From: Arthrobacter sp. MYb229
GTDB lineage: Bacteria > Actinomycetota > Actinomycetes > Actinomycetales > Micrococcaceae
Direction of reading: 5' to 3'
Length of the DNA: 64,000 nucleotides
NCBI RefSeq assembly: GCF_002975405.1
Contig: NZ_PCPS01000005.1
Location: forward strand, 1-64,000
In this document: in pieces, positions 17,582 through 61,327 of the stretch
How the letters are laid out: the number at the start of each line of letters is the position of its first letter
How positions within the stretch are numbered: the stretch's first letter is position 1
Made by a program: the position numbers and the translations under genes
The notes under the pieces: model-generated
Databases searched by the model: none
The model's input: the letters and a program-made list of their open reading frames with translations, nothing else
What the model was told of the DNA's origin: nothing

Positions 17582-19069
17582 CTAGAATCGCGAGGATCCC
17601 CCGGCGCCGGAGAAGCTGCCGCCACCGGAATAGCCGTGGGAGACGCCCGAGGAGCTGGCGGCCTCCCGGGAGGTGTCCACCGCGTTGACCCCGGTGGCGT
17701 ACCCGGCGTTGTAGGAGTTCACCCGCCAGAACATCGAAGCCGGGTAGATCACATCGAGAATGGATCCCGAACGGCTCGCACCGGTGCTGTCGTAGCGGGA
17801 GTGGCGCAGCGCTTCGTGCATCTCCTGCTTCTCTTCGGCGCTCGACGCATAGACCTCGACCTGCGCGCTAGCGTAGGCATCGAGTCGTTCGGTGAGCTGG
17901 CTGCGCAGTTCGGACAACTTATCAAGGGCGGTATCCACATCGAGCTTTTCGGCCTTCAGCTCGTTGCCCAGATCTGCCACGGCGCGTTTTGCGGTGGCGG
18001 AGTAGGAATCCAATGCGGCGGCTTGTGCCTGCAGTTCTTCCGGCGCATCTTCGATCAGCGCGGGCAGCTCGGTCAGGTCTTCGAGCAAGGGTGCGGTTTG
18101 GCGGCGCCAGGCATCTTCCCACGCGGCACCGCGGGTGTAGAGGGCCGCGGCGTCGTTGATCGCATCGTCGGTGAGGTCCAGGGCCTGGGCGTTGGCGTGG
18201 AATTCCTTGGCGCGAGCCACCCCGGGGCTGCTTGAACGCAGCTTCTTGCTCGCCTGCGCCAGCTCTTGCTGCGTGGTGAAGCAAGCGCGGTAGGTGGCGG
18301 CAAAGTCGGCGAAGCGTCGTTCGAGTTCCGCGGCGTGGTGCGAGTCGCCAGGCAAGGTGCGCGCGGATAGTTCGGTGGCGTCCAAATCCATGGTCACATT
18401 GGTCAGGTGCGCGCTGCCCGATTCCAGCTGCTCGGCGAAGCTCTTTCGCCGCCCCGAACGCACCGCGAGCGCTATGCCGGTACCTCCGATGGCGCCCAGG
18501 CTCCCCAGCCCCACGGTCCAGCCGAGCGCCGGATGCCGATACCAGGGGCGGTTGATGATGTTCGCGCCGCGCGCGGCGACGGCGACAACTCCGTCGGTCC
18601 AGCGGGCCTGGTTAAAATCCTCGGAGCCCGCCTCATGGATCGAGCGCATCTGGGAGTCGGACACCTTGCGGTCCTCGCCGAAGTAGGTCCCGATCTGGCC
18701 ATCTCCAGGGCCCTCCACGGACAGCGTGATGATGAAGTATCCGTCGGCCCAGTAGTCACCGTAGTCCTCGGGGTCCGCCGAAATCCATTCGGGGTGCGCG
18801 CTGCGGGCGTGGCCTAGCGTCTGGCTGTTGATGTCATCCGCATACTGGCCTTCACGCGAATACACGGCGACCTTGGTGGGCTCGTTGAAGTCGATCTCGC
18901 CCACCGCATCGCGCAGCTTCTGCTCGTTGAGCACGTTGGCGGTGTCATCGATGGTGATCGAATCCAGGTTTATTCCCTCTGCCTGCGCCGCGGGCGGCAC
19001 GGCGAGGAACAGCAGCGTGGCGGCGGCCGCCGCGGCCAGTGCACGGCGTGGAGAATTTAGCTGGCGCAT
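17582..19069 (-). CDS. Secreted/membrane DUF5129 (TPM-like) protein
   Basis: A 495-aa exported protein. Residues 1-30 are a signal peptide ending near AQA-EG. Residues 31-150 resemble a TPM-type domain (DDTANVLNEQ, VAVYSREGQYADDIN). A hydrophobic segment near residue 180-205 (LGWTVGLGSLGAIGGTGIALAV) would anchor it, followed by a long A/E-rich probably coiled-coil cytoplasmic part and a Ser/Gly-rich tail (GYSGGGSFSGAGGSSRF) as in TPM proteins. Function is unknown; TPM proteins act in membrane or photosystem quality control in other bacteria. ATG 19069 has GAGAGGA upstream. Confidence 0.7.
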   Translation of the reverse strand: MRQLNSPRRALAAAAAATLLFLAVPPAAQAEGINLDSITIDDTANVLNEQKLRDAVGEIDFNEPTKVAVYSREGQYADDINSQTLGHARSAHPEWISADPEDYGDYWADGYFIITLSVEGPGDGQIGTYFGEDRKVSDSQMRSIHEAGSEDFNQARWTDGVVAVAARGANIINRPWYRHPALGWTVGLGSLGAIGGTGIALAVRSGRRKSFAEQLESGSAHLTNVTMDLDATELSARTLPGDSHHAAELERRFADFAATYRACFTTQQELAQASKKLRSSSPGVARAKEFHANAQALDLTDDAINDAAALYTRGAAWEDAWRRQTAPLLEDLTELPALIEDAPEELQAQAAALDSYSATAKRAVADLGNELKAEKLDVDTALDKLSELRSQLTERLDAYASAQVEVYASSAEEKQEMHEALRHSRYDSTGASRSGSILDVIYPASMFWRVNSYNAGYATGVNAVDTSREAASSSGVSHGYSGGGSFSGAGGSSRF

Positions 19070-19386
19070 GGAGAATTCCTCTCAGGCAGATGATGCGAAT
19101 TATTCCGAACGTTAGGCCAATAGCTCCATCCTAACGGCTGGAACGGGGTAGCCGCGCAGTCCGCGTGGCGCCGCGGCACGCTGCCAGGAGGAGCAGCGAT
19201 GTGATTCCAACGACCAATTGACCCTTCAACTTCCCGGTAGGCGGTCCGAGGGTATTTAATGGGTTCTGGACGCCGCAACGTCCGATCCCCTCCAGGATCC
19301 GTACCCCCTTTTCCGAGAGTTCACTCCCCCTGAGCGCTCGAACCACTTGTGCATGACACTTTAGTGAAGGGACGGATCCGCCAAGT
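19070..19386. other. Intergenic region between divergent DUF5129 and Pls/PosA genes
   Basis: About 317 bp with no supportable gene. It contains the DUF5129 ribosome site and an AGGGA stretch 14 nt before the synthetase start, farther than ideal. I could not choose promoter elements with confidence. Confidence 0.5.
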
Positions 19387-22300
19387 ATGGACTCCGTAAA
19401 TAGTTCAAAGACCGAGGAGCCTGGGCTCCACTCGCCCCAGTTCCCTTCCGGTGCGCTAGCTCCTGCCGAGCGCACCCTCATCGACATTCTGCAGGCCACC
19501 GCCACGGCGCATCCCGACGCGCCGGCCATTGACGACGGCGAACGCAGCGAAAGCTACGCGGAGCTGATCGAGGAGGTCAAGGCGAAAGCCCGCGCCCTGC
19601 ATGAACACGGGCTCGGCGCCGGCGACCGAATCGGCGTGCGCGTCCCCTCGGGAACCCGCCAGCTTTATGAATGGATCCTCGCGATCCTCTGGGTCGGTGC
19701 CGCCTACGTACCGGTTGACGCGGACGATCCGGACGAGCGGGCGAAGGTGGTCTTCACCGAGGCCGAGGTCGCCGGCATCGTGAAGGGCCTGGAGGAGATC
19801 GTGGTTTCCGCCGATCGCCCCACCCCCTTCCCGAACCCGCGCGCGCCGCAGCTGGACGACGACGCGTGGATCATCTTCACCTCCGGCTCCACCGGCAAGC
19901 CCAAGGGCGTGGCGGTCTCCCACCGTTCGGCCGCCGCCTTTGTGGATGCCGAAGCACTCATGTTCCTGCCCGAAGACCCGCTGAACACCTCGGACCGCGT
20001 GCTGGCCGGGCTGTCGGTGGCCTTCGATGCGTCCTGCGAGGAGATGTGGATCGCCTGGCGCAACGGCTCCTGCCTGGTTCCCGCCCCGCGGGCGCTGGTG
20101 CGCAGCGGCATGGATCTGGGCCCCTGGCTGATCTCCCGCTCCATTACCGCGGTCTCCACGGTGCCCACTCTCGCCGCCCTCTGGCCGTCGCAGGCGCTGG
20201 AGTCCGTGCGCCTGCTGATCTTCGGCGGCGAAGCCTGCCCGCCGGAGCTTGCCGGACGCCTGGCCACCACGGGCCGCGAGGTGTGGAACACCTATGGCCC
20301 GACCGAGGCCACCGTGGTGGCCTGCGGCGCCACCATGGACGGCAGCCTCCCGGTGCGCATCGGCCTGCCGCTGGCCGGCTGGGACCTGGCGGTAGTCGAC
20401 GGAGAGGGAATTCCCGTCGCCGAAGGCGAAACCGGTGAGCTGATCATCGGCGGGGTGGGCCTGGCCCGCTATCTGGACCCGGAAAAGGACGCCGAGAAGT
20501 ACGCGCCCATGCCCACCCTGGGCTGGGACCGCGCCTACCGCTCGGGCGACGTGGTGGTCAATGACCGGCTGGGGCTGATCTTCATCGGCCGCGTAGACGA
20601 CCAGGTAAAGATCGGCGGCCGGCGCATCGAACTCGGTGAAATCGACGCGGCGCTGAGCGCGCTCGACGGCGTGTCCAGCGCCGCGGTGGCGGTGCGCGAA
20701 ACCGGTACCGGAAACAAGCTGCTTGTCGGCTATCTGGCCGCCGACGCGGGCTATGACCTGGATGCCGCGCGCACCGAACTGCTCAAGGATCTGCCCGCGG
20801 CGATGGTGCCGCTGCTCACCGTGGTGGACAGCATGCCGATGAAAACCAGCGGCAAGGTGGACCGCAACGCGCTGCCGTGGCCGCTGGCCGGGGCCGAATC
20901 CGAGCAGTCCGGCGAGGAGCTGGCCGGGCTCGATGAGACCGGCGACTTCGTGGCCCGGGCCTGGAAGGGCGCGCTGGGCATCGCGGCCTCCAGCGCCGAC
21001 TCCGACTTCTTCGGCTCCGGCGGCGGCTCGCTCTCCGCGGCCCAACTGGTCTCCGCTTTGCGCGCCCGCTACCCGGACCTGACGGTCGCCGAGCTCTACG
21101 ACTACCCGCGCTTTGGCGCGCTGGTGGAATACCTCGGCGGACAGCAGGTCAACGACGAGGTCATCGAGCCTCGCATCGTCAAGCGCACCAAGCGCATCAC
21201 GCAGATCGCCCAGACTCTGCTCGCGGTGCCGCTGTTCATCCTTTCCGGCCTGCGTTGGTTCACCTACCTGATGCTCGGTCACTGGTTCCTGCTCAGCGTG
21301 GGAATCCTCGAAGCGCAGCTGCCGATTCCGTGGTATTCGATCGTGGCCTCCTGGCTGATCTTCGTGACCCCTGCCGGGCGCATGGGGCTCTCGATCCTGG
21401 CCAGCAAGCTCTTGCTGCGCGGGCTGAAACCGGGAACCTACCAGCGTTCGGGCTCGATGCACCTGCGCTTGTGGCTGGCGCAGCACATTTCCGATGTGGT
21501 CGATCCGATTTCCCTGGCCAGCGCGCCGCTGCTGCCTTGGTACGCGCGCATGCTGGGCGCAAATATCGACAGAACCGCCACCATGCACACGCTGCCTCCG
21601 GTGACCGGAATGCTCACCGTCGGACCGGGGGCCACCTTGGAGCCCGAGGTCGACGTCTCCGGCTACTGGATCGACGGCGACCAGGTGCATGTGGGCCATG
21701 TGAGCGTCGGCGATTTCGCCTCCGTCGGCGCCCGCTCCACCTTGGTTCCCGGAGCAGTGGTTGGACCACACACCATCGTGGAAGCCGGATCCGCCATCTA
21801 CGGCGAAACCCGCGAGAACTCGCGCTATGCCGGATCCCCGGCCGCTCGCGAGGGACGGGCCAAGCCACGCTGGCCCGAAGAAATTCCGTCATACCGGGTC
21901 CTTCCGCGCGTGCTGGGCGCGGTCGGTTCGATATTGCTGAACCTCTTGCAGTGGTTGCCGGTGGTTTTGGCCGTGTTGGCGGTCACTCCGATGCTGCGTG
22001 CCGAGGAATCGCTGACCTCGATCGGCTGGAAAATCATCCCGGCGGTGCTGCTTGCCGCGCTGGTATGGTTCCTGTCCATGATGGCGCTGATCGTCATCGA
22101 GGTGCGGTTGCTGTCCATCGGCCTGGTCGAAGGCTGGCATCCGGTGACCTCCCGGGTCGGCTGGCAGGCGTGGGCGACCGAACGCGTGCTGGATACCGCC
22201 CGCGATGTGCTCTTCCCGCTCTACGCTTCATTGTTCACCCCGGTGTGGCTGCGGCTGCTCGGCGCCAAGGTCGGCCGTGACGTGGAAATCTCCACGGTGC

Positions 22301-23307
22301 TGCTGATCCCGAAGATGACCGCCATCGCCTCGGGCGCTTTTTTGGCCGATGACACCATGGTCGCCTCCTACGAATTGGGCGGCGGCTGGATGCATATCGC
22401 CCCGGTGCGCGTGGGCAAAAAAGCGTTCCTCGGCAACTCCGGCATCCTGCATGCCGGTCGCCGGGTGCCTAAGCGCTCGCTGATTGCGGTGCTTTCGGCG
22501 ACCCCCCGCAAGATGAAGGCCGGAACTTCCTGGATCGGCTCTCCCCCGCATAAGCTGCGGCGCACCACGGTGGATGCCGAATCCGAGCGTACCTATCAGC
22601 CGCCGATGAAGCTCAAGATCATGCGTGCGGCCTGGGAGCTCTCCCGTTGCCTGGCGGTCTTCACCACGGTAGGCATCGCCGCCGGAGTGCTCTGGGCGCT
22701 GTCCGCGCTGGTGACCCACGTGAACCCGCTGTCCGCCGCGCTGCTCTCCGGCGCGGTACTGGTCTTGGCCGGAGCTCTCGCCGCAGCCAGCGCGTTGGCC
22801 GCCAAATGGCTGGTGGTCGGGGTGATCCGCCCGGGCGAGCACACGCTGTGGAGCTCGTTCATCTGGCGCACCGAGATGGTCGACTCCTTTGTGGAGCTGG
22901 TCTGCGCCCAGTGGTTTGCGCGGCTGGCCTCCGGCACGCCGGCGCTGGTCTGGTTCCTGCGTGCGCAGGGCGCAAAGATCGGGCACGGGGTGTGGTGTGA
23001 AAGCTACTGGTTCCCCGAGGCAGACCTGGTCACCTTGGAAGATCACACGACGGTGAACCGCGGCAGCGTATTGCAGACCCACCTGTTCCACGACCGCATC
23101 ATGTCCATTGACACGGTCACCCTCGGGTCCGGGGCTACGCTCGGCCCGCACAGCGTCATCCTGCCGGCTGCGAAGATCTCCGATGGCACCACCACCGGAC
23201 CGGCTTCGCTGGTGCTGCGCGGCGAGGTGCTGCCAGCAAATACCTACTGGCGCGGCAATCCGGCGGTACGCTGGAACATCACACCCGACGAATCACAGAC
23301 AGCATAG
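19387..23307 (+). CDS. Pls/PosA-type membrane nonribosomal poly-amino-acid synthetase
   Basis: 1306 aa with the architecture of epsilon-poly-lysine synthetase: adenylation domain (about 30-500), carrier domain (about 515-585), then membrane segments alternating with three acyltransferase-like soluble domains. Adenylation motifs are TSGSTGKPKG (165-174), NTYGPTEAT (301-309), YRSGD (384-388), GRVDDQVKIGGRRIE (401-415) and catalytic Lys490. The phosphopantetheine serine is probably Ser548 in GGGSLS. Specificity positions read D214, A215, E218, S257, I278, G280, T302, V310 (D-A-E-S-I-G-T-V), which resembles reported lysine codes. Hydrophobic pairs occur near 605-670, 905-960 and 1105-1160. There is no thioesterase or classical condensation domain. 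An M1 peptidase gene follows after 11 bp. Product inferred: a cationic homopolymer of lysine or a similar diamino acid. Confidence 0.85.
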   Translation: MDSVNSSKTEEPGLHSPQFPSGALAPAERTLIDILQATATAHPDAPAIDDGERSESYAELIEEVKAKARALHEHGLGAGDRIGVRVPSGTRQLYEWILAILWVGAAYVPVDADDPDERAKVVFTEAEVAGIVKGLEEIVVSADRPTPFPNPRAPQLDDDAWIIFTSGSTGKPKGVAVSHRSAAAFVDAEALMFLPEDPLNTSDRVLAGLSVAFDASCEEMWIAWRNGSCLVPAPRALVRSGMDLGPWLISRSITAVSTVPTLAALWPSQALESVRLLIFGGEACPPELAGRLATTGREVWNTYGPTEATVVACGATMDGSLPVRIGLPLAGWDLAVVDGEGIPVAEGETGELIIGGVGLARYLDPEKDAEKYAPMPTLGWDRAYRSGDVVVNDRLGLIFIGRVDDQVKIGGRRIELGEIDAALSALDGVSSAAVAVRETGTGNKLLVGYLAADAGYDLDAARTELLKDLPAAMVPLLTVVDSMPMKTSGKVDRNALPWPLAGAESEQSGEELAGLDETGDFVARAWKGALGIAASSADSDFFGSGGGSLSAAQLVSALRARYPDLTVAELYDYPRFGALVEYLGGQQVNDEVIEPRIVKRTKRITQIAQTLLAVPLFILSGLRWFTYLMLGHWFLLSVGILEAQLPIPWYSIVASWLIFVTPAGRMGLSILASKLLLRGLKPGTYQRSGSMHLRLWLAQHISDVVDPISLASAPLLPWYARMLGANIDRTATMHTLPPVTGMLTVGPGATLEPEVDVSGYWIDGDQVHVGHVSVGDFASVGARSTLVPGAVVGPHTIVEAGSAIYGETRENSRYAGSPAAREGRAKPRWPEEIPSYRVLPRVLGAVGSILLNLLQWLPVVLAVLAVTPMLRAEESLTSIGWKIIPAVLLAALVWFLSMMALIVIEVRLLSIGLVEGWHPVTSRVGWQAWATERVLDTARDVLFPLYASLFTPVWLRLLGAKVGRDVEISTVLLIPKMTAIASGAFLADDTMVASYELGGGWMHIAPVRVGKKAFLGNSGILHAGRRVPKRSLIAVLSATPRKMKAGTSWIGSPPHKLRRTTVDAESERTYQPPMKLKIMRAAWELSRCLAVFTTVGIAAGVLWALSALVTHVNPLSAALLSGAVLVLAGALAAASALAAKWLVVGVIRPGEHTLWSSFIWRTEMVDSFVELVCAQWFARLASGTPALVWFLRAQGAKIGHGVWCESYWFPEADLVTLEDHTTVNRGSVLQTHLFHDRIMSIDTVTLGSGATLGPHSVILPAAKISDGTTTGPASLVLRGEVLPANTYWRGNPAVRWNITPDESQTA

Positions 23308-23318
23308 GACCGCGCCGG

Positions 23319-24623
23319 ATGCCCCAGAAGATCTTGGATGAATACACCAAGCACCACGGTTCGGCCGCGTACACCGTGGACCACTACGACCTGGAACTGA
23401 CTTGCAAGCTCGCCAGCAACCTGCTCGAAGGCAAGGCGGTACTGCACCTGCGCGCGCTCCAGGACCTGGACACCGTGCAATTGAACCTGCACGGGCTGCG
23501 CGTGCTGAAGGCCACCTGCCAAGGCAAAAAGGCCCAGGTCTCCAAGCGCAACCACCGCATCGAGGTGCAGCTGCCGAGCCGCTTGGCCGCCGGCGAGCGC
23601 ACCGAGCTGACCCTGCGCTATGCAGGCAACCCCGGGGTGCAAAACGGCATCTGGGGCGAGGTCGGCTGGGAAGAGCTGACCGATGGGGTGCTCGTTTCCG
23701 GTCAGCCGACCGGCGCGGCGACGTGGTTCCCCTGCAACGACCACCCGAGCCACAAATCCACCTACCGCTTCTCCATCGCCACCGACGCCGGCTACCGGGC
23801 GGTGGCCAACGGCGAACTGATCAACCATTCACGCGCCGCCAGCCGCGACACCTGGGTCTACGAGCAGCGCGAACCGATGGCCAGCTACCTGGCTACCTTG
23901 CAGATCGGCCGCTATTCGGAGATCCCCTTCGACGAGGATCGGCATCTGGTGGCCTATGCGGTGCCCGGCATGGATCTGAAGGTCCGCGGGGCCTTCGGCA
24001 AACAGACCGAAATGGCAGAGGTCTTCGAACGGCACTTCGGCCCGTACCCCTTCGAGAGCTACAAGATCGTGGTGGTCAACGACGAGCTGGAGATCCCGCT
24101 CGAGGCCCAGGGGCTGAGCATCTTCGGGCTGAACCACCTGTCCATGGACTGGGAGGCGCAGCGCCTGATCGCCCACGAATTCTCCCACCAGTGGTGGGGC
24201 AACTCGCTGACCCTGAAGCGTTGGAAGGACATCTGGCTGCACGAGGGCTTCGCCTGCTTCAGCGAGTGGCTGTATTCCGAAGCCGCCGGGGTCATGCCCA
24301 TGGCCGAACGCGCCCGGCTGGCCTGGGAACTGCTCGACGGGCAGGACCAGGATTTGGCCATCGGGGATCCGGGGGCCAAGGACATGTTCGATGACCGCGT
24401 ATACAAGCGTGGCGCGATGGCGCTGTTCGCGCTGCTCGGAGAGCTTGGCACCGAAACCTTCTACACGATGCTCAAAGAGTGGGCGGCCGCCCGAAGCCAC
24501 GGGCACGTAGACACCGAGGCGTTCATCGCGCACGCCCAGGGTTTCGCCCCCGACGCACTGGATGTCGCCGCCCTGCTGCGGCCGTGGCTGTACGACCAGA
24601 AGCTGCCGGTTTTCCCACGCTAG
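23319..24623 (+). CDS. M1 family zinc aminopeptidase
   Basis: 434-aa M1 metallopeptidase with an intact zinc site: HEFSH (286-290) and Glu309 in LHEGF, the HExxH-x18-E pattern, plus Tyr362 in VYKRGA as the transition-state tyrosine. The usual GAMEN substrate loop is replaced by EAQGLSIFG (262-270), and the C-terminal ARM-repeat domain of large aminopeptidases is missing, so this is a short M1 form. No signal peptide is visible. It starts 11 bp after the poly-amino-acid synthetase and is surely co-transcribed. M1-type enzymes degrade epsilon-poly-lysine in producing streptomycetes as I recall, so a role in trimming or self-protection is plausible but inferred. Confidence 0.85.
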   Translation: MPQKILDEYTKHHGSAAYTVDHYDLELTCKLASNLLEGKAVLHLRALQDLDTVQLNLHGLRVLKATCQGKKAQVSKRNHRIEVQLPSRLAAGERTELTLRYAGNPGVQNGIWGEVGWEELTDGVLVSGQPTGAATWFPCNDHPSHKSTYRFSIATDAGYRAVANGELINHSRAASRDTWVYEQREPMASYLATLQIGRYSEIPFDEDRHLVAYAVPGMDLKVRGAFGKQTEMAEVFERHFGPYPFESYKIVVVNDELEIPLEAQGLSIFGLNHLSMDWEAQRLIAHEFSHQWWGNSLTLKRWKDIWLHEGFACFSEWLYSEAAGVMPMAERARLAWELLDGQDQDLAIGDPGAKDMFDDRVYKRGAMALFALLGELGTETFYTMLKEWAAARSHGHVDTEAFIAHAQGFAPDALDVAALLRPWLYDQKLPVFPR

Positions 24624-24646
24624 CGCGCCGCATAGAACACCACCTA

Positions 24647-24681
24647 CGAACCGTCGAGTCTGCTCGGCGGTTCGTTTCTTT
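24647..24681 (+). terminator. Terminator of the synthetase/M1 operon
   Basis: CGAACCGTCGAG (24647-24658) pairs with CTCGGCGGTTCG (24663-24674) with one G-T pair and a 4-nt loop, followed by TTTCTTT. A typical intrinsic terminator 23 bp after the M1 stop codon. Confidence 0.85.
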
Positions 24682-24761
24682 AAGCGCAGTAGCGCACTGC
24701 TCCCTGGTCCTGCCCGTTTGCATCGTCGGATTCTGAATGCCAAAAACTTCGCTACTCGGTA

Positions 24762-24791
24762 TTGCTAACTACCAGTAGTCTGCGATACTAT
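24762..24791 (+). promoter_or_regulatory. Promoter of the padR-DUF1048-ABC operon
   Basis: TTGCTA (24762-24767) and TACTAT (24786-24791) with an 18-bp spacer. The spacer and the start region are occupied by the inverted repeat described separately. Confidence 0.6.
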
Positions 24792-24801
24792 CTACTGGTA
24801 G
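24769..24801. promoter_or_regulatory. Candidate PadR operator
   Basis: CTACCAGTAG (24769-24778) and CTACTGGTAG (24792-24801) are perfect reverse complements, and each half is itself nearly palindromic (CTAC..GTAG). They bracket the -10 of the promoter for padR. Two-fold symmetric sites at this place are usual for autoregulating PadR proteins. Confidence 0.65.
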
Positions 24802-24834
24802 TCATTATCACTAGATAGCGCTTGGAGGGCCTCT

Positions 24835-25188
24835 ATGGCAAAGCAGATGACCGAAATGCTCAAGGGCACCCTGGAGGGGATCGTCCTGGCGATCTTGGAT
24901 GAATCTCCGGCCTACGGATACGAAATCACCGCACGGCTGCGCGGCAAAGGGCTCAGCGACATCGTCGAAGGAACCGTCTACGCCCTGCTGATCCGCTTGG
25001 AGAAACGCGGTCAGGTCGACGTGGAAAAGGTGCCCTCGGAAAAGGGGCCACCGCGCAAGGTCTATACCTTGAACGCGATGGGCCGCGATTACCTCGAAGA
25101 GTTCTGGAAGAGCTGGTTCTTCCTCTCCGAGCGCATCGAAGCATTGCACAAAAACTACACCAACCACCCAGAAGGAAAATCCTCATGA
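24835..25188 (+). CDS. PadR family transcriptional regulator
   Basis: 117-aa winged-helix repressor. LKGTLEGIVLAILDESPAYGYEIT is the standard PadR N-terminus and GTVYALLIRLEKRGQV its recognition helix and wing. PadR proteins of this short (subfamily 2) type usually repress an adjacent transporter and respond to small toxic molecules. GGAGGG 5 nt before ATG 24835 fixes the start. First gene of a four-gene operon linked by 4-bp ATGA overlaps, with a symmetric operator over its own promoter. Confidence 0.9.
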   Translation: MAKQMTEMLKGTLEGIVLAILDESPAYGYEITARLRGKGLSDIVEGTVYALLIRLEKRGQVDVEKVPSEKGPPRKVYTLNAMGRDYLEEFWKSWFFLSERIEALHKNYTNHPEGKSS

Positions 25189-25553
25189 GCACCAAATGGT
25201 ACGAAGTCCTCACCGGCCAGCTGCAGCAGAAAAAGCAATACAAGGAAGCCAAGGCCCGCTTGGACGCGCTGCCCGAGCCCTACCGCGCAACGGCTACGGC
25301 GTTGAATCGCTACTTCATGTATTTCGGCGGCATCACCGATGGGGACACCCTGGTGCAGATGTTCATCGACCACGCTGACCTGTGGGAGCGAGCCTCCATC
25401 GACCGGCTGCCGCTCCGTGAAGTTGTTGGCGAGGACCCAGTGGAATTCGCTGAAAACTTCACCCTGTCCTACGGAGGAAAACAATGGATCGACAAGGAAC
25501 GCGCCCGGCTGATCAAGGCAGTTCAGGACGCGAAACGAAGCGAAGAATCATGA
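25185..25553 (+). CDS. DUF1048 family protein
   Basis: 122-aa, mostly helical, charged protein matching the DUF1048 pattern: repeated short helices, LPEPYRATATALNRYFMYFG in the middle and a conserved ENF-type C-terminus. No signal peptide or membrane segment. DUF1048 genes are typically found between a PadR regulator and an ABC transporter, as here (4-bp overlaps on both sides), so it probably senses or helps control that system, but no biochemical function is known to me. Confidence 0.75.
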   Translation: MSTKWYEVLTGQLQQKKQYKEAKARLDALPEPYRATATALNRYFMYFGGITDGDTLVQMFIDHADLWERASIDRLPLREVVGEDPVEFAENFTLSYGGKQWIDKERARLIKAVQDAKRSEES

Positions 25554-26329
25554 ACACCGAGAGTGCACCCACCGCAATCAGCGTCCGCGGGCTGAAAAAG
25601 TCGTATAAGGACCTCCAGGTGCTCCGCGGGGTTGACCTGGAGGTAAACCCCGGAGAGATCCTGGCGCTGCTCGGCTCGAATGGCGCCGGGAAAACCACAC
25701 TCGTGCGGATACTTTCCACGCTGCTGGCCGCAGATGCAGGCAGTGCGCTCGTCGCCGGTTTTGATACCGCCACCCAGGCGCACCGGGTCCGCGAAACGAT
25801 CAGCCTGACCGGTCAATTCACCGCCATCGATCCGGTGCTCAGCGGCCGCGAAAATCTAGTCTTGATGGCGCAGCTGCGTCACCTGAAAAACGCGAGTCAG
25901 CATGCCGAGGAGTTGCTGGAACGATTTGCGCTTAGCGACGCTGGCGACCGGAAGGCCGCGACCTATTCCGGTGGAATGAGCCGCCGGCTAGACATTGCGA
26001 TGAGCCTGATCGGGAATCCACGCATCATTTTCTTGGACGAGCCAACCACCGGCTTGGATCCGCAGGCACGCTTGGAGGTCTGGGATACCGTACGCCGGCT
26101 CGCCGCGGACGGCACCACCGTGCTGCTGACCACGCAGTACCTCGACGAGGCCGAACAGCTGGCGGATCGTATCGCGATCTTGCACCGGGGAACCATCATT
26201 CAAAACGGGACCCTCGACCAACTCAAGGACTTGCTGCCGCCAGCCCACGTAGAATACGTGAAGAAACAGCCCTCCTTGGAGGAAGTGTTCCTCGCCTTGG
26301 TCGGCGCCCCCGATCAGGAGCAGCCATGA
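25550..26329 (+). CDS. ABC transporter ATP-binding protein
   Basis: 259-aa drug/polyketide-type ABC ATPase (DrrA-like). Walker A GSNGAGKTT near residue 42, signature YSGGMSRRLDIA near 142, Walker B IIFLDEPTTGLDP near 163 and H-loop region LLTTQYLDEAEQLADR near 193 are all intact. The start is ATG 25550, which overlaps the DUF1048 stop by 4 nt; an earlier in-frame ATG inside DUF1048 lacks support. It pairs with the permease that follows to export a probably hydrophobic or antibiotic substrate; the substrate is unknown. Confidence 0.92.
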   Translation: MNTESAPTAISVRGLKKSYKDLQVLRGVDLEVNPGEILALLGSNGAGKTTLVRILSTLLAADAGSALVAGFDTATQAHRVRETISLTGQFTAIDPVLSGRENLVLMAQLRHLKNASQHAEELLERFALSDAGDRKAATYSGGMSRRLDIAMSLIGNPRIIFLDEPTTGLDPQARLEVWDTVRRLAADGTTVLLTTQYLDEAEQLADRIAILHRGTIIQNGTLDQLKDLLPPAHVEYVKKQPSLEEVFLALVGAPDQEQP

Positions 26330-27090
26330 CCACCCACGCGCTACACGACACCGGCGTACTCACCGGACGCTCGCTGCGTCATATCCTGCGCAGTCCCGAC
26401 ACGATCATCACCACCGCGATCACCCCGATCGCCATGATGCTGTTGTTCGTTTATGTGCTCGGAGGTGCAATCAATACCGGCACCGATGGCTCCTACATCA
26501 ACTACCTATTACCCGGGATCCTGCTGATCACCATTGCCTCGGGCATTGCGTATACCGCCTACCGGCTGTTCCTGGACTTGCAAGGGGGCATCTTTGAACG
26601 CTTCCAGTCCATGCCGATCTCCCGATCCAGCGTGTTGTGGGCGCATGTATTCACCTCGCTGCTCGCAAACCTGGTATCCATCGCCATCGTCATCGGGGTG
26701 GGACTGCTGATGGGCTTCCGCGCCCAAGCCTCAATCGGTGGCTGGTTGGCGATAGTCGGGATTCTGGTGCTCTTCGTCTTGGCGTTGACTTGGCTCGCGG
26801 TCATCGCCGGGCTGAGCGCGAAGACCGTAGATGGGGCCAGCGCATTCAGCTACCCGTTGATCTTCGCCCCATTCATCAGTTCCGCTTTTGTGCCTACCGC
26901 CTCGATGCCCTCTCCGGTGGCCTGGTTCGCCGAACACCAGCCGGTGACCTCCATCGTTGACACGCTTCGGGCCTTATTTTCCGGACAGCCGGTTGGACAA
27001 GAAATATGGGTGGCGCTGGCCTGGCTGCTGGGAATCCTAGTGATCGCGTACTCGCTGGCGAATCTGATCTATCGCCGTAAAATCAGCTAG
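26326..27090 (+). CDS. ABC-2 type transporter permease
   Basis: 254-aa integral membrane protein with about six hydrophobic segments (near residues 22-45, 58-80, 98-125, 135-160, 168-188 and 225-245), as expected for the DrrB/ABC-2 family. It contains the usual FQSMPISR-like motif in the cytoplasmic coupling region. ATG overlaps the ATPase stop by 4 nt. Last gene of the PadR-controlled operon. Confidence 0.9.
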   Translation: MTTHALHDTGVLTGRSLRHILRSPDTIITTAITPIAMMLLFVYVLGGAINTGTDGSYINYLLPGILLITIASGIAYTAYRLFLDLQGGIFERFQSMPISRSSVLWAHVFTSLLANLVSIAIVIGVGLLMGFRAQASIGGWLAIVGILVLFVLALTWLAVIAGLSAKTVDGASAFSYPLIFAPFISSAFVPTASMPSPVAWFAEHQPVTSIVDTLRALFSGQPVGQEIWVALAWLLGILVIAYSLANLIYRRKIS

Positions 27091-27107
27091 CCGCGAGATG
27101 ACTGCAA

Positions 27108-27150
27108 CCGAGCCGAGGCATGCGCATCTCCCTTACCCGACTCGGCTCGG
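27108..27150 (+). terminator. Possible terminator of the PadR-ABC operon
   Basis: CCGAGCCGAG (27108-27117) and CTCGGCTCGG (27141-27150) are perfect complements with a 23-nt loop, 17 bp after the permease stop. No U-tract follows, so termination strength is doubtful. Confidence 0.4.
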
Positions 27151-27409
27151 CGGATCGCCCACAAAGATTGAGCGGCTTCGCTGCGCATAGCAGGCCACCG
27201 CTGCACCAATGAAATTTCAACCGGATCGTTAACCGGCGAACGCCGACCGTTCCCCGCATTCCCCTTCGACGCCACGAGGCGAAGCCCGCGCCCTGCGAGT
27301 TCAATTTTCGCTTCTGTCCAGCAAACCGCATTAATCACATCTACCCTTTTCAAGCCCTGGTTTCCCAATTGTTCATCTTGTGTTAACCGGGAAAAATTAG
27401 GCTGGGGTT
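27151..27409. other. Gap before ppk2
   Basis: With the hairpin above, the gap from 27091 to 27409 is about 319 bp without a gene. It contains a TAGGCT hexamer (27398-27403) exactly 6 nt before the ppk2 ATG, the same leaderless geometry as elsewhere, and nothing else I can support. Confidence 0.45.
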
Positions 27410-28303
27410 ATGACGGTTGAACTCCCCCTCCTCGAAGAGGCTTTCCGCGGATATTCGGTTCTAGACAATGACGACGACCCGGTCTTAGTTCGCGCCGACG
27501 GGAGCATCGTGGACACTTGGCGGGAGGACTACCCGTACGAGGCCAAGATGGACCGTGTCACCTACGACGCGGAGAAGCGAGCGTTGCAGATCGAACTGCT
27601 GAAGCTGCAAAAGTGGCTCAAGGTGCATGGTCGACGTCTGATGATCGTCTTCGAGGGCCGCGATGCCGCCGGCAAGGGCGGCACGATCAAGCGGTTCGCC
27701 GAGCACCTGAACCCCCGCGGCGCTCGTGTAGTCGCGCTCGAAAAGCCGACGGAGCGCGAATCCAGCCAGTGGTACTACCAGCGCTACATCGAGCATTTCC
27801 CGACCGCCGGGGAGATCGTGCTCTTCGACAGGTCCTGGTACAACCGCGCCGGGGTGGAACGCGTGATGGGGTTCTCCACGCAAAACCAGGTGGAGCATTT
27901 CCTGGAGCAGACCCCGCACTTCGAGCGGCTGCTCGTCGAGGAGGGCATCGACCTGGTGAAATTCTGGTTCTCCGTCTCCGCCGGCGAACAGCTGACCCGC
28001 TTCACGATTCGCCGGATCGACCCGGTGCGCCAGTGGAAGCTCTCCCCCATGGACCTGGCCTCGCTGGACAAGTGGGATGACTACACGGCCGCGAAGAAGC
28101 AGATGTTCTTGAAGACCGATACCGAGCACGCCCCGTGGACGGTGGTGAAGTCCAACGACAAGAAACGCGCCCGGTTGCAGGCGATGCGCCACGTGCTGAA
28201 CCTCTTCGAATACAAGGGCAAGGACCACGAGCTGGTAGGCACCCCGGACCCGAAGATCGTCGGCCGCGCCGCGCGGGTCATCAACCACGGCGAGGAGTTC
28301 TAG
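27410..28303 (+). CDS. ppk2: Polyphosphate kinase 2
   Basis: 297-aa one-domain PPK2 enzyme that moves phosphate between polyphosphate and nucleotides. Walker A is GRDAAGKGG near residue 84; the lid and catalytic segments EKPTERESSQWYYQRYIEHFP and FDRSWYNRAGVE follow, both diagnostic of the family. Single-domain members are usually class I (nucleoside diphosphate) or class III; sequence alone does not settle which. No Shine-Dalgarno; TAGGCT lies 6 nt before ATG. Monocistronic. Confidence 0.92.
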   Translation: MTVELPLLEEAFRGYSVLDNDDDPVLVRADGSIVDTWREDYPYEAKMDRVTYDAEKRALQIELLKLQKWLKVHGRRLMIVFEGRDAAGKGGTIKRFAEHLNPRGARVVALEKPTERESSQWYYQRYIEHFPTAGEIVLFDRSWYNRAGVERVMGFSTQNQVEHFLEQTPHFERLLVEEGIDLVKFWFSVSAGEQLTRFTIRRIDPVRQWKLSPMDLASLDKWDDYTAAKKQMFLKTDTEHAPWTVVKSNDKKRARLQAMRHVLNLFEYKGKDHELVGTPDPKIVGRAARVINHGEEF

Positions 28304-58531: not shown

Positions 58532-61327
58532 ATGCGTTCCACGCCGATAACCATGACCGATGAGTTTGACGATGCCCTTTCGCGACTGCATTCCGGCAAG
58601 AACCTGTTTCTCACCGGAAAGGCTGGAACTGGTAAATCTACTCTCATCCGTACGTATCTCGAACAAACGCAGCGGGCTTCCCTGGTTGCCGCACCGACAG
58701 GAATTGCGGCGCTCAATGTAGAGGGCTACACAATACACCGACTTTTTGGCTTTCATTCCGGCACGACGGTTGAACAAGTCCGGTCTAGCGAATACTACCC
58801 GGGCCGTTTCGCGAAGGTTCTGAAACGCCTCGAAACTCTAATAATCGACGAGGCTTCAATGGTTCGGGCCGATTTATTCGATTGCCTCGTCGAGGCCCTA
58901 ACGCGGTTCGGCCCTAAGCCTGGCCACCGTTTCGGAGGTATTCAATTAGTTTTGGTGGGCGATCTTTACCAGCTTCCGCCAGTCGTCCTAGAACCCGAAT
59001 CAGAATACTTCTCCACCGTCTATGAGTCGCCATTCTTCTTTTCTGCCAATACGTTTGAAACATCTGAATTTCCGGTCGTTGAGCTCACGACTGTCTTCCG
59101 ACAGCTTGGCGATGACAGGTTGGTTTCGTTATTGAACTCAGTTCGAGACGGTAGCCTCACTCCAGAATCCCAGCAAGCGCTAAATCAGCAGGTGCGTTCA
59201 GGTTTCACGCCACCGCTTGACGAGCGTTGGTTGACGCTGACCACGACAAATCGTATCGCTGGCGCCAGGAACAAGAGGATGCTCGAAAAACTAGATGCAC
59301 CGCTGCATACATCCGAAGCCAAAATCACGGGTGATATTACCGGTTTCGAACCCCTCGCTGACAAAAAGTTGCAGTTCAAAGACGGCGCACAAGTCATGAT
59401 GCTGACGAATGACCCGGCTGATCGTTGGGTCAACGGAACCATCGCTGAAGTAATCGCAACATCTACGACAGATGCTGGGCATGAAGTAGCGGTCAAGTTG
59501 CCAAGCGGAACGACAGCCATAGTAACTGCGCACAAATGGCACGTTACTCGTCCCGAGTTTTCCGATGGAACGATTAAACACGAATCAGTTGGATCCTTCG
59601 TGCAACTTCCATTTAAACTTTCTTGGGCTATTACGATCCACAAGTCTCAAGGTCAAACGCTAGATAAATGTGTTGTTGATTTGGCTGGTGGAACATTTGC
59701 AGACGGTCAACTATATGTTGGACTCAGCCGTTGCACGAACCTAGAAGGATTGGTTCTCACTCAGCCGATTCAGCCCAAGGATCTCAAAGTAAATCAACGT
59801 ATTCGTCGCTACTTGCGGTCTAAGGGGACAGAAATCCACTCCACGGGCACGGCATACGTTGGAGTTTGCACAGTTGGCGAGCCTTCACGACTATCTAGAC
59901 CTAGACCGGTTGAAATAGCGATTATTACTGATGCCGGAGAAGAAATAAGTACACTCATCAACCCTGAACGCGATTTGGGGACCGCTTGGACAGATTATGA
60001 CATCGCCGCTTCAGAAATACTGCTGGCACCCAGACTTCATGAAGCGTGGAATGCCCTATCGCCCTTCCTCGCGGGTAGAACCCCCGTTGGTTTCAATATC
60101 GACTCAACCCTGTACGACATCGATTATGAACTCAAACGTGGGGGTCATCTGGCAGAGATTCCACTGGGCAATGACGCGCAAGATCTGCGTAAGACTCAAC
60201 TTCTTCAGGAATTTTATGGGCGAACCGCGATAGGCCAAGCACGTGCCGCAAGAGATTCAGACCTACAGAATACGCATAGGACCTCTCATGACGTATTCCC
60301 TGATTCAACGGGAGAGCCGGGCTATTTAATGCCACGGGCAGGTTCTTCCGAAGTTGTCGAATTCCTTGTCGCAAGCGACGAACAACTTGAATACTCGTTG
60401 GCTAATTTTTTAGCGAGTAAAGCTACGGTTGCAGTCCACGAAGCTTCAAGTGCGGCGGTGCTTGCCGGTGTCGACAAAATAGCTGGTAGTGCGTTAATGC
60501 AGGACTCACAGAAATTGATGAAACCGATCCATGAAATCGCTGTGGCTGGCGCTGGCATCTGCTTTACCGGCAGCGCCAGAGACTTACAGGGTAAGCCAAT
60601 CTCAAGGACTGCACTAGAGGATATCGCCGTTGCACATGGAATGGTGCCGCAAGCAAATGTAACGAAGTCGAAATGTCGAATGCTCGTGTCAGCTGAAACA
60701 GGAACTCAATCTGGAAAGGCCAAAAGCGCGCAAAAATTCGGTATCCCAATTTTTTCCGTTGATCAATATCTGCATCATGTCTCCGGGACAATGAGCGAAT
60801 CCACGGACGGAGCAGTAGAATCGCGGACTGTTCGGATCCGTCCCGTACCTGTCCCCATGCGTCAGCAAACAGATTGTGCTCCCGAATTCCACGATGACCC
60901 TGACATCGTCACGGAAATTGAGCAAAACTCCTTGCACGAAAGCGCTGCAGTGTTTGCTTCCCATACGACGCCTCTGGTCGATAATTTTCAAGGATCGACA
61001 ATACGTTCCACCGGCTTGGATTCAGATCAGGCTAACTACGACAGGGCTCGCGCTGAGTCAGCGCAGAAGCAGCCCTACTCGATGACAGCCGCCAGGACTC
61101 CAATGTTGAAAAAGTCCAAATGCTTTCACTTAGTCATGCTCTCGCTCACGCTCGGCCTTCTCATTATTCTTCCGCTGTGCTTCGCCGGATTTGCCGTGGC
61201 TTTTCCAAAAGCAGACTCAATATTATTCGCGTCATTCGGCGTCTCCGCCCTTGCCGGCGTTGTCAGCCTCATATTTTGGATTGTGGTGTCAATCAATCGG
61301 ATGCTGAAAAGGAACCATCAGCAATGA
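58532..61327 (+). CDS. Pif1-like helicase fused to degenerate DnaQ-like domain, BRCT and membrane anchor
   Basis: 931 aa. Residues 20-430: superfamily 1B helicase of Pif1/RecD type with GKAGTGKST (29-37), IIDEAS (104-109), GDLYQLPP (143-150) and AITIHKSQGQTLD (366-378). Residues 440-580 follow the strand pattern of a DnaQ exonuclease (VEIAIITDAGEEISTLINPE, AWNALSPFLAGRTPVGFN) but the acidic catalytic residues of motif I are missing (YVGVCTVGEP). Residues 670-750: BRCT domain (GAGICFTGSARDLQGKPISR ... IPIFSVDQYL). Residues 866-890 and 894-919: two membrane helices. GC is clearly lower than in neighbours, with rarer codons, which suggests recent transfer. Alone on the plus strand between miaB and recX. 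Start ATG 58532; ATG 58553 also possible. Function unknown. Confidence 0.8.
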   Translation: MRSTPITMTDEFDDALSRLHSGKNLFLTGKAGTGKSTLIRTYLEQTQRASLVAAPTGIAALNVEGYTIHRLFGFHSGTTVEQVRSSEYYPGRFAKVLKRLETLIIDEASMVRADLFDCLVEALTRFGPKPGHRFGGIQLVLVGDLYQLPPVVLEPESEYFSTVYESPFFFSANTFETSEFPVVELTTVFRQLGDDRLVSLLNSVRDGSLTPESQQALNQQVRSGFTPPLDERWLTLTTTNRIAGARNKRMLEKLDAPLHTSEAKITGDITGFEPLADKKLQFKDGAQVMMLTNDPADRWVNGTIAEVIATSTTDAGHEVAVKLPSGTTAIVTAHKWHVTRPEFSDGTIKHESVGSFVQLPFKLSWAITIHKSQGQTLDKCVVDLAGGTFADGQLYVGLSRCTNLEGLVLTQPIQPKDLKVNQRIRRYLRSKGTEIHSTGTAYVGVCTVGEPSRLSRPRPVEIAIITDAGEEISTLINPERDLGTAWTDYDIAASEILLAPRLHEAWNALSPFLAGRTPVGFNIDSTLYDIDYELKRGGHLAEIPLGNDAQDLRKTQLLQEFYGRTAIGQARAARDSDLQNTHRTSHDVFPDSTGEPGYLMPRAGSSEVVEFLVASDEQLEYSLANFLASKATVAVHEASSAAVLAGVDKIAGSALMQDSQKLMKPIHEIAVAGAGICFTGSARDLQGKPISRTALEDIAVAHGMVPQANVTKSKCRMLVSAETGTQSGKAKSAQKFGIPIFSVDQYLHHVSGTMSESTDGAVESRTVRIRPVPVPMRQQTDCAPEFHDDPDIVTEIEQNSLHESAAVFASHTTPLVDNFQGSTIRSTGLDSDQANYDRARAESAQKQPYSMTAARTPMLKKSKCFHLVMLSLTLGLLIILPLCFAGFAVAFPKADSILFASFGVSALAGVVSLIFWIVVSINRMLKRNHQQ

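Follow-up and report, generated by a model that had tools for sequence, protein, structure and literature searches.

A candidate two-gene epsilon-poly-L-lysine unit, pls and a pldII-type peptidase gene, in a Glutamicibacter-like genome

The window, a stretch of 64,000 nucleotides from a genome that is Glutamicibacter-like, carries one large synthetase gene at 19387-23307, which raises the question of what polymer its product makes and whether it works with a partner. We propose, with a probability of roughly 0.87, that pls and a pldII-type peptidase gene together form a two-gene unit for epsilon-poly-L-lysine. Family, domains, pocket identity and a conserved gene pair are observed here. By analogy with Streptomyces and Corynebacterium work, L-lysine would be activated with ATP by a cytoplasmic adenylation domain and loaded onto the carrier serine. 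The membrane part, with its helix pairs and beta-helix domains, would then link lysines one by one via the amino groups of their side chains, and release the polymer or export it. Protection would come from the M1 peptidase, which may cleave polymer that is harmful to the producing cell or finds its way back to it. This would give a small, non-filamentous actinobacterium a complete epsilon-poly-lysine unit, with a characterised lysine pocket and a partner peptidase.

The pls open reading frame (plus strand) starts with ATG, contains no internal stops and encodes 1306 amino acids; a frame open across 1306 codons, together with full-length family matches, rules out a chance reading frame. A 771-amino acid open reading frame on the minus strand overlaps pls and was taken as the shadow of a GC-rich gene. 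Residues 608-1293 match TIGR02353, the Pls/PosA terminal domain, at 622.6 bits (cut-off 423.1). Pfam scores the whole protein at 203.4 bits for AMP-binding (PF00501), 41.6 for carrier (PF00550) and 31.0 for hexapeptide (PF00132), each above its cut-off, although for PF00132 it is the sum over the protein that passes and no individual hexapeptide stretch does. The generic model TIGR01733 falls slightly under its threshold (311.6 versus 317.4). Pfam at E 0.001 returned AMP-binding, PP-binding and Hexapep only, with no condensation or thioesterase domain. Adenylation and carrier domains thus precede the Pls/PosA membrane terminal domain, and the protein, judged by its sequence, is a Pls/PosA-family synthetase. 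In a 40-row tree built with a quick method, it clusters with the Pls enzymes of Micrococcaceae, Microbacteriaceae, Nocardiaceae, Kribbella and Kitasatospora (SH-aLRT 100).

The carrier domain occupies 20947-21135 (residues 521-583), and its attachment serine is probably S548 in GGGSL. Beyond it, the best AlphaFold2 model (mean pLDDT 86.0, pTM 0.86; the remaining four models, 84.9 to 75.3) predicts three pairs of long helices, one ahead of each of three beta-helix domains. The first pair lies at 21193-21414 (residues about 603-676), where hydropathy detects the first helix only, the second at 21898-22116 (about 838-910) and the third at 22648-22818 (about 1088-1144), the latter two found by both hydropathy and the model. 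The C1 acyltransferase-like domain spans 21556-21888 (residues about 724-834, with PF00132 at 771-804) and C2 spans 22261-22578 (about 959-1064), both with limits set by eye on the model. C3, at 22972-23286 (about 1196-1300), is placed by the model, by conserved columns and by weak matches to hexapeptide transferases, the best at E 0.00083. It holds the near-invariant residues E1211, D1213, H1232 and H1235 (columns at least 98% conserved over 127 aligned rows). A sequence-only reading of this DNA had assigned the same family and domain plan, and the profile matches and the predicted structure bear it out. Its "about six" membrane helices agree with the three modelled pairs but not with simple hydropathy, which alone yields five segments here and six in a paralogue encoded elsewhere in the genome. 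The regions that it called acyltransferase-like correspond to the three modelled beta-helix domains, for which Foldseek retrieves hexapeptide acyltransferases, at E 2.7e-4 at best, although the TM normalised to this three-domain query is no more than about 0.1.

The same reading had held that products from this bacterial group are little described, a point whose weight is not supported. Homologues of Pls from Glutamicibacter, Arthrobacter and Micrococcus are already on record (Jiang et al. 2021, PMC8117764), and an Antarctic study describes non-alpha poly-amino-acid clusters in all of its Micrococcaceae and Dermatophilaceae strains (PMC11078813). The window Pls is therefore a further member of a known system, unlike the homologues of Jiang et al. 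in coming from another strain or species, and compared with them by description only. In that account, Corynebacterium variabile has the same family of synthetase and a pls-peptidase pair, there an operon. As reported, C. variabile Pls yields epsilon-PL when expressed in Streptomyces coelicolor. According to the same paper, epsilon-PL was not detectable in C. variabile itself, nor did expressing its pls in C. glutamicum give any (PMC8117764).

Whether the gene is used, and for what, is a question separate from what the enzyme is; antagonism or surface charge, which the sequence-only reading suggested, would be candidate roles. A synthetase over the cut-off occurs in 14 of 18 same-genus genomes and is lacking in the other four, so pls is dispensable. 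Our control genome, C. glutamicum, also holds one family member over the cut-off; family membership alone is therefore no predictor of production. There is a substantial, if minority, chance that pls is intact yet mostly silent, or serves chiefly at the surface or under stress and not in antagonism. The Pls protein of C. variabile went undetected by proteomics in the published account (PMC8117764), the gene is kept in those 14 of 18 genomes, and among the window's own neighbour genes searched for in 80 named loci of relatives, the peptidase alone is widely kept beside pls. Against this, epsilon-PL is reported to inhibit many bacteria at 1-32 ug/ml, Arthrobacter and Micrococcus among them (PMC8506220). 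This reading is about function, leaves the identity of the enzyme untouched and fits with the two-gene epsilon-poly-L-lysine unit.

That partner gene, absent from the sequence-only reading, lies at 23319-24623 on the plus strand, starting 11 bp 3' of pls in a putative operon. It encodes a 434-amino acid M1 family zinc metallopeptidase (PF01433, PF17900) in the pldII position, whose HEXXH motif (HEFSH, residue 286) is intact. In 78 of the 80 named loci, which span several actinobacterial families, an M1 peptidase gene follows pls on the same strand, and HEXXH...E is intact in all 78. In three of them the gene stands about 650 bases from pls. Of the two exceptions, L113 ends at a contig edge and L079 is without a match. 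M1 genes are also found beside one Streptomyces and one Kitasatospora family member. In S. albulus, pldII is described as adjoining pls, and its repression as leading to cell dissolution (PMC9223678). A review states that inactivation of Pld and PldII altered neither production nor chain length (PMC8506220). From its M1 family and its position, with S. albulus PldII compared by description only, we take the window gene to encode a putative PldII-type peptidase. An unrelated housekeeping aminopeptidase next to pls by chance seems improbable: M1 enzymes are common, the likeness to PldII was judged by family and position, and the top curated NCBI matches fall far under their cut-offs, but neither the same-strand downstream position in nearly all named loci nor the published adjacency of pldII to pls (PMC9223678) fits a chance neighbour.

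The substrate was approached through the adenylation domain (19450-20892, residues 22-502), identified by PF00501 and by a phmmer match to 7wew, the crystallised Pls of S. albulus (E 3.4e-183), with which it shares 300 of 478 aligned residues (63%). The specificity residues are D214, A215, E218, S257, I278, G280, T302, V310, V311 and K490. The resulting pocket, DAESIGTVVK, equals that of 7wew at all ten positions and extends the eight-residue lysine-like code that had been read from the sequence. The same alignment method gave DLEDIGSVVK and DLEDIGTVVK for two proteobacterial family members, so it does separate pockets. Code position 2 is described as Met in PosA, the delta-poly-L-ornithine synthetase of Acinetobacter baumannii, Ala in Pls and Phe in diaminopropionate and diaminobutyrate enzymes (PMC10522769), and the Ala found here points to lysine. 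Polymerisation of a different diamino acid (ornithine, diaminobutyrate, diaminopropionate or beta-lysine) is highly improbable: one family makes all these polymers, and the PosA pocket DMEHNGTVSK loosely resembles DAESIGTVVK (PMC10522769), but every pocket residue matches the lysine-using S. albulus enzyme, position 2 differs from the Met and Phe types, and the published beta-lysine code is DGESISVVNK (PMC10522769). PosA itself shares the family architecture and acidic residues at the first and third code positions, whereas posA is described as a single-gene operon without a peptidase (PMC10522769); with Ala215 in place of Met and a different pocket, a PosA identity was rejected. Because the pocket is identical to that of Streptomyces Pls and carries Ala at position 2, and because the gene is paired with that of a putative PldII-type peptidase, epsilon-poly-L-lysine would be much likelier than poly-ornithine. 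The short cationic isopeptide polymer suggested by the sequence-only reading is thus supported as a prediction and may be narrowed toward epsilon-poly-L-lysine.

The two-gene unit resembles S. albulus Pls/PldII in its ten-residue pocket, its A-domain identity, the domain plan as published and the M1 metallopeptidase gene that follows immediately. It differs in the length of the peptidase gene, 1305 bp here against 1404 bp reported for pldII (PMC9223678). Over the full length, Pls is 49-53% identical to the Streptomycetaceae family members L117 and L118, S. albulus being compared by A domain only.

A second Pls (Pls2), on a different contig of this genome, is 48% identical to the window Pls and is placed by sequence in a distinct Micrococcaceae clade. 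Among the fetched relatives, loci of this clade contain a membrane acyltransferase-like gene in 20 of 20 cases and an extra dapA in 15 of 20, and these linked genes suggest that the Pls2 polymer is lysine-fed and perhaps acylated. We found no description of this clade or arrangement (pls with dapA or paralogues) in the literature searched, mainly non-subscription. It is conceivable, though we consider it doubtful, that this bacterium produces two poly-lysines of different chemistry: plain epsilon-poly-lysine policed by the peptidase from the window, and a Pls2 polymer that is fed through the linked dapA, as its own entry enzyme to the lysine pathway, and acylated on the outside, either as protection or to form a coat bound to the cell. 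If confirmed, the second clade would show how modified poly-lysines can arise naturally, and the linked dapA would be a genetic handle for substrate prediction in uncharacterised family members.

A terminator-like hairpin of 13 pairs lies 3' of the peptidase gene (24646-24675, plus strand); it is a consensus match only, and the region has 8 such sites where chance would give 5.2. A promoter scan of 19000-27450 returned no sigma-70-like promoter. A PadR-DUF1048-ABC cassette at 24835-27090 was set aside as an immunity module, since it lies past the terminator-like site. At E 1e-8 its PadR, DUF1048 and membrane subunit had no matches in the 80 named loci, and its ABC ATPase had distant matches only (19 of 80 loci, 24-32% identity). 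PPK2 is not argued for as an ATP/AMP recycling partner, being adjacent downstream in only 8 of the 80 loci; in these eight near relatives it follows the peptidase within 73-146 bases, a further reason for setting the cassette aside.

The open reading frame of pls spans 1306 codons on the plus strand (19387–23307), and its product scores 622.6 bits with the NCBI model of the Pls/PosA terminal domain (cut-off 423.1). In Pfam, the protein matches models for adenylation and carrier domains and for a hexapeptide repeat; with TIGR01733, the generic model for adenylation domains, it scores 311.6, slightly below the cut-off of 317.4. An M1 metallopeptidase gene (23319–24623) with HEFSH and a downstream Glu begins 11 bases past the pls stop codon. 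It is followed by a terminator-like hairpin of 13 pairs (24646–24675), a consensus match of which the region holds 8 against 5.2 expected. The best explanation, to which we give a probability of roughly 0.87, is a two-gene epsilon-poly-L-lysine unit consisting of pls and a pldII-type peptidase. The nearest named relative of Pls is that of Glutamicibacter ardleyensis (90% identity), followed by Arthrobacter sp. MYb213 (86%) and five more Glutamicibacter/Arthrobacter genomes (81–83%), which assigns the window to a Glutamicibacter-like organism. The source genome is 4.0 Mb in 23 contigs.

Aligned by sequence with the crystallised adenylation domain of S. albulus Pls (7wew), the window's domain is identical at 300 of 478 aligned positions. 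The two share one code, DAESIGTVVK, at the ten Stachelhaus positions, anchored on GrsA motif positions. Of 127 aligned rows, partly non-independent since L026 and L120 are one gene and some genomes may duplicate named ones, 101 carry this code and 26 carry DAESIGTVIK. Two proteobacterial family members yield DLEDIGSVVK and DLEDIGTVVK by the same procedure, and thus the method does separate pockets. The ornithine enzyme PosA has DMEHNGTVSK according to PMC10522769. That paper ties position 2 to enzyme type, with Ala in Pls, Met in PosA and Phe in enzymes for diaminopropionate/diaminobutyrate, and reports that PosA activated lysine more strongly once its Met was replaced by Ala. The sequence-only reading had proposed a short cationic isopeptide polymer, a sound inference about the biology that can now be narrowed further.

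The pairing with the peptidase is conserved. Among 80 named loci (pls regions fetched from named relatives), 78 have a peptidase match 3' of pls on the same strand, with HEXXH...E intact in all 78; L079 has no such match and L113 ends with its contig. The two matches lie a median of 55 bases apart, reaching about 650 in three loci, and the pair also occurs in two annotated Streptomycetaceae records. In S. albulus, pldII (1404 bp) adjoins pls; when it was repressed, cells dissolved and chains became longer (PMC9223678). By contrast, a review states that inactivation of Pld and PldII left production and polymerisation degree unchanged (PMC8506220), and a protective role for the peptidase is therefore inferred and partly contested.

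By sequence, the C-terminal 707 residues resemble solved structures weakly, with seven matches at E ≤0.01 (best 0.00083), all hexapeptide transferases or carbonic-anhydrase-type proteins. An AlphaFold2 model of residues 585–1300, built from 57 aligned sequences (the window and 56 of the 80 named loci), has a mean pLDDT of 86.0 and pTM of 0.86. It predicts six long helices in three pairs, and after each pair comes a domain built of short strands, which we read as a beta-helix. Foldseek gave 23 matches at E ≤0.001, the best being hexapeptide acyltransferases at E 2.7e-4 and weaker, with a query-normalised TM of about 0.1. Many columns, spread over the full C-terminal part, are at least 98% conserved; they are most densely packed in the segment labelled C3 (E1211, D1213, Q1230, T1231, H1232, F1234, H1235 and R1237), which would be the first candidate place for catalysis. 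Probably, lysine would be adenylated and loaded on S548, the membrane part would polymerise it via side-chain amino groups, chains would exit the cell, and the peptidase would cut those threatening the producer. The analysis itself established only the anatomy and the conserved pls-peptidase pairing.

The synthetase is ordinary for this bacterial group: 14 of 18 same-genus genomes and 90 of 297 sampled from the order (own included in both) have it above the family cut-off, and of 14 named control genomes one, Corynebacterium glutamicum, has a member above it. The novelty earlier claimed for the group does not hold, since Jiang et al. 2021 (PMC8117764) already place Pls homologues in Glutamicibacter, Arthrobacter, Micrococcus and other cheese/skin genera. 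The same study describes epsilon-PL from S. coelicolor expressing the C. variabile enzyme; neither in C. variabile nor in C. glutamicum expressing the enzyme was a product seen. Epsilon-poly-lysine or NAPAA clusters are likewise mentioned for Leifsonia (PMC10628120), Agrococcus and Microbacterium (PMC12067966), Micrococcaceae (PMC11078813) and Kocuria (PMC12149201).

The genome encodes a second full-length synthetase, Pls2, on contig C12 (L008 8174–12280; TIGR02353, 576.0 bits), 48% identical to the window Pls and with the pocket DAESIGTVIK. Of the 18 same-genus genomes, G002 is the only other with two members above the cut-off. Other genomes of the family hold relatives at 57–79% identity (best 29 after its own), and 159 of 295 match either Pls type at E 1e-200. 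In a tree of 40 rows, made by a quick method, one branch (SH-aLRT 99) separates the 16 second-type rows from the rest, and the window Pls groups with the first-type, window-like enzymes (SH-aLRT 100); L117, a Streptomyces enzyme also with a peptidase, falls outside both. The program warned of letter make-up in L117, L118 and two outgroups, and of the long row L168. Five second-type rows (L140–L144) have DAESIGTVVK as well, so this clade is not defined by its pocket.

In all 20 second-type loci fetched (L149–L168), a relative of an HGSNAT_cat-type membrane protein gene lies downstream of pls, as it does after Pls2 in our genome (whole stretch L008 8174–13512). In 15 of the 20, the two genes flank a dapA match, which in L151, whose sequence contains N, is fragmented; one example scores 271.2 bits (dapA cut-off 206.15). 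Our own Pls2 locus has no linked dapA. The linked copy is present in 10 of 14 genomes searched, and all 10 have another dapA over the cut-off elsewhere. At E 1e-10, neither gene matched in the 80 named loci (flanks about 8 kb or less), the two Streptomycetaceae plasmid loci or the window. Being a lysine-pathway gene, the linked dapA gives independent support for lysine as the second-clade substrate; that its polymer is acylated is offered as a hypothesis only. M1 matches lie further downstream in five of the 20 (L160–L164); L152 has a partial downstream match, and L150 and L151 each have one upstream, that of L150 belonging to a neighbouring first-type pls. None lies in the 19.9 kb around our Pls2. 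In L150 (G224:C67), first- and second-type pls are divergent and share a contig, with about 1.6 kb between them.

A polyphosphate kinase 2 gene (27410–28303; TIGR03707, 375.4 bits) lies near the pls-peptidase pair; it may, though this is unproven, be connected with the ATP consumption of Pls. In eight of the 80 named loci, all near relatives, it comes directly downstream of the peptidase, which suggests that the cassette separating the two genes here (24835–27090: genes for a PadR regulator, a DUF1048 protein and two ABC transporter components) is a lineage-specific insertion. Counting our own, 8 of the 18 same-genus genomes have DUF1048 relatives. Divergent to pls is a DUF5129 protein gene (17582–19069); of the 80 named loci, just those of the two nearest relatives (L037, L044) share this arrangement, and in five others the gene is found further downstream. 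An open reading frame with a PIF1-like helicase domain (58532–61324) lies in a stretch with GC of 0.52–0.55, against 0.60–0.70 for most of the window, and was possibly acquired.
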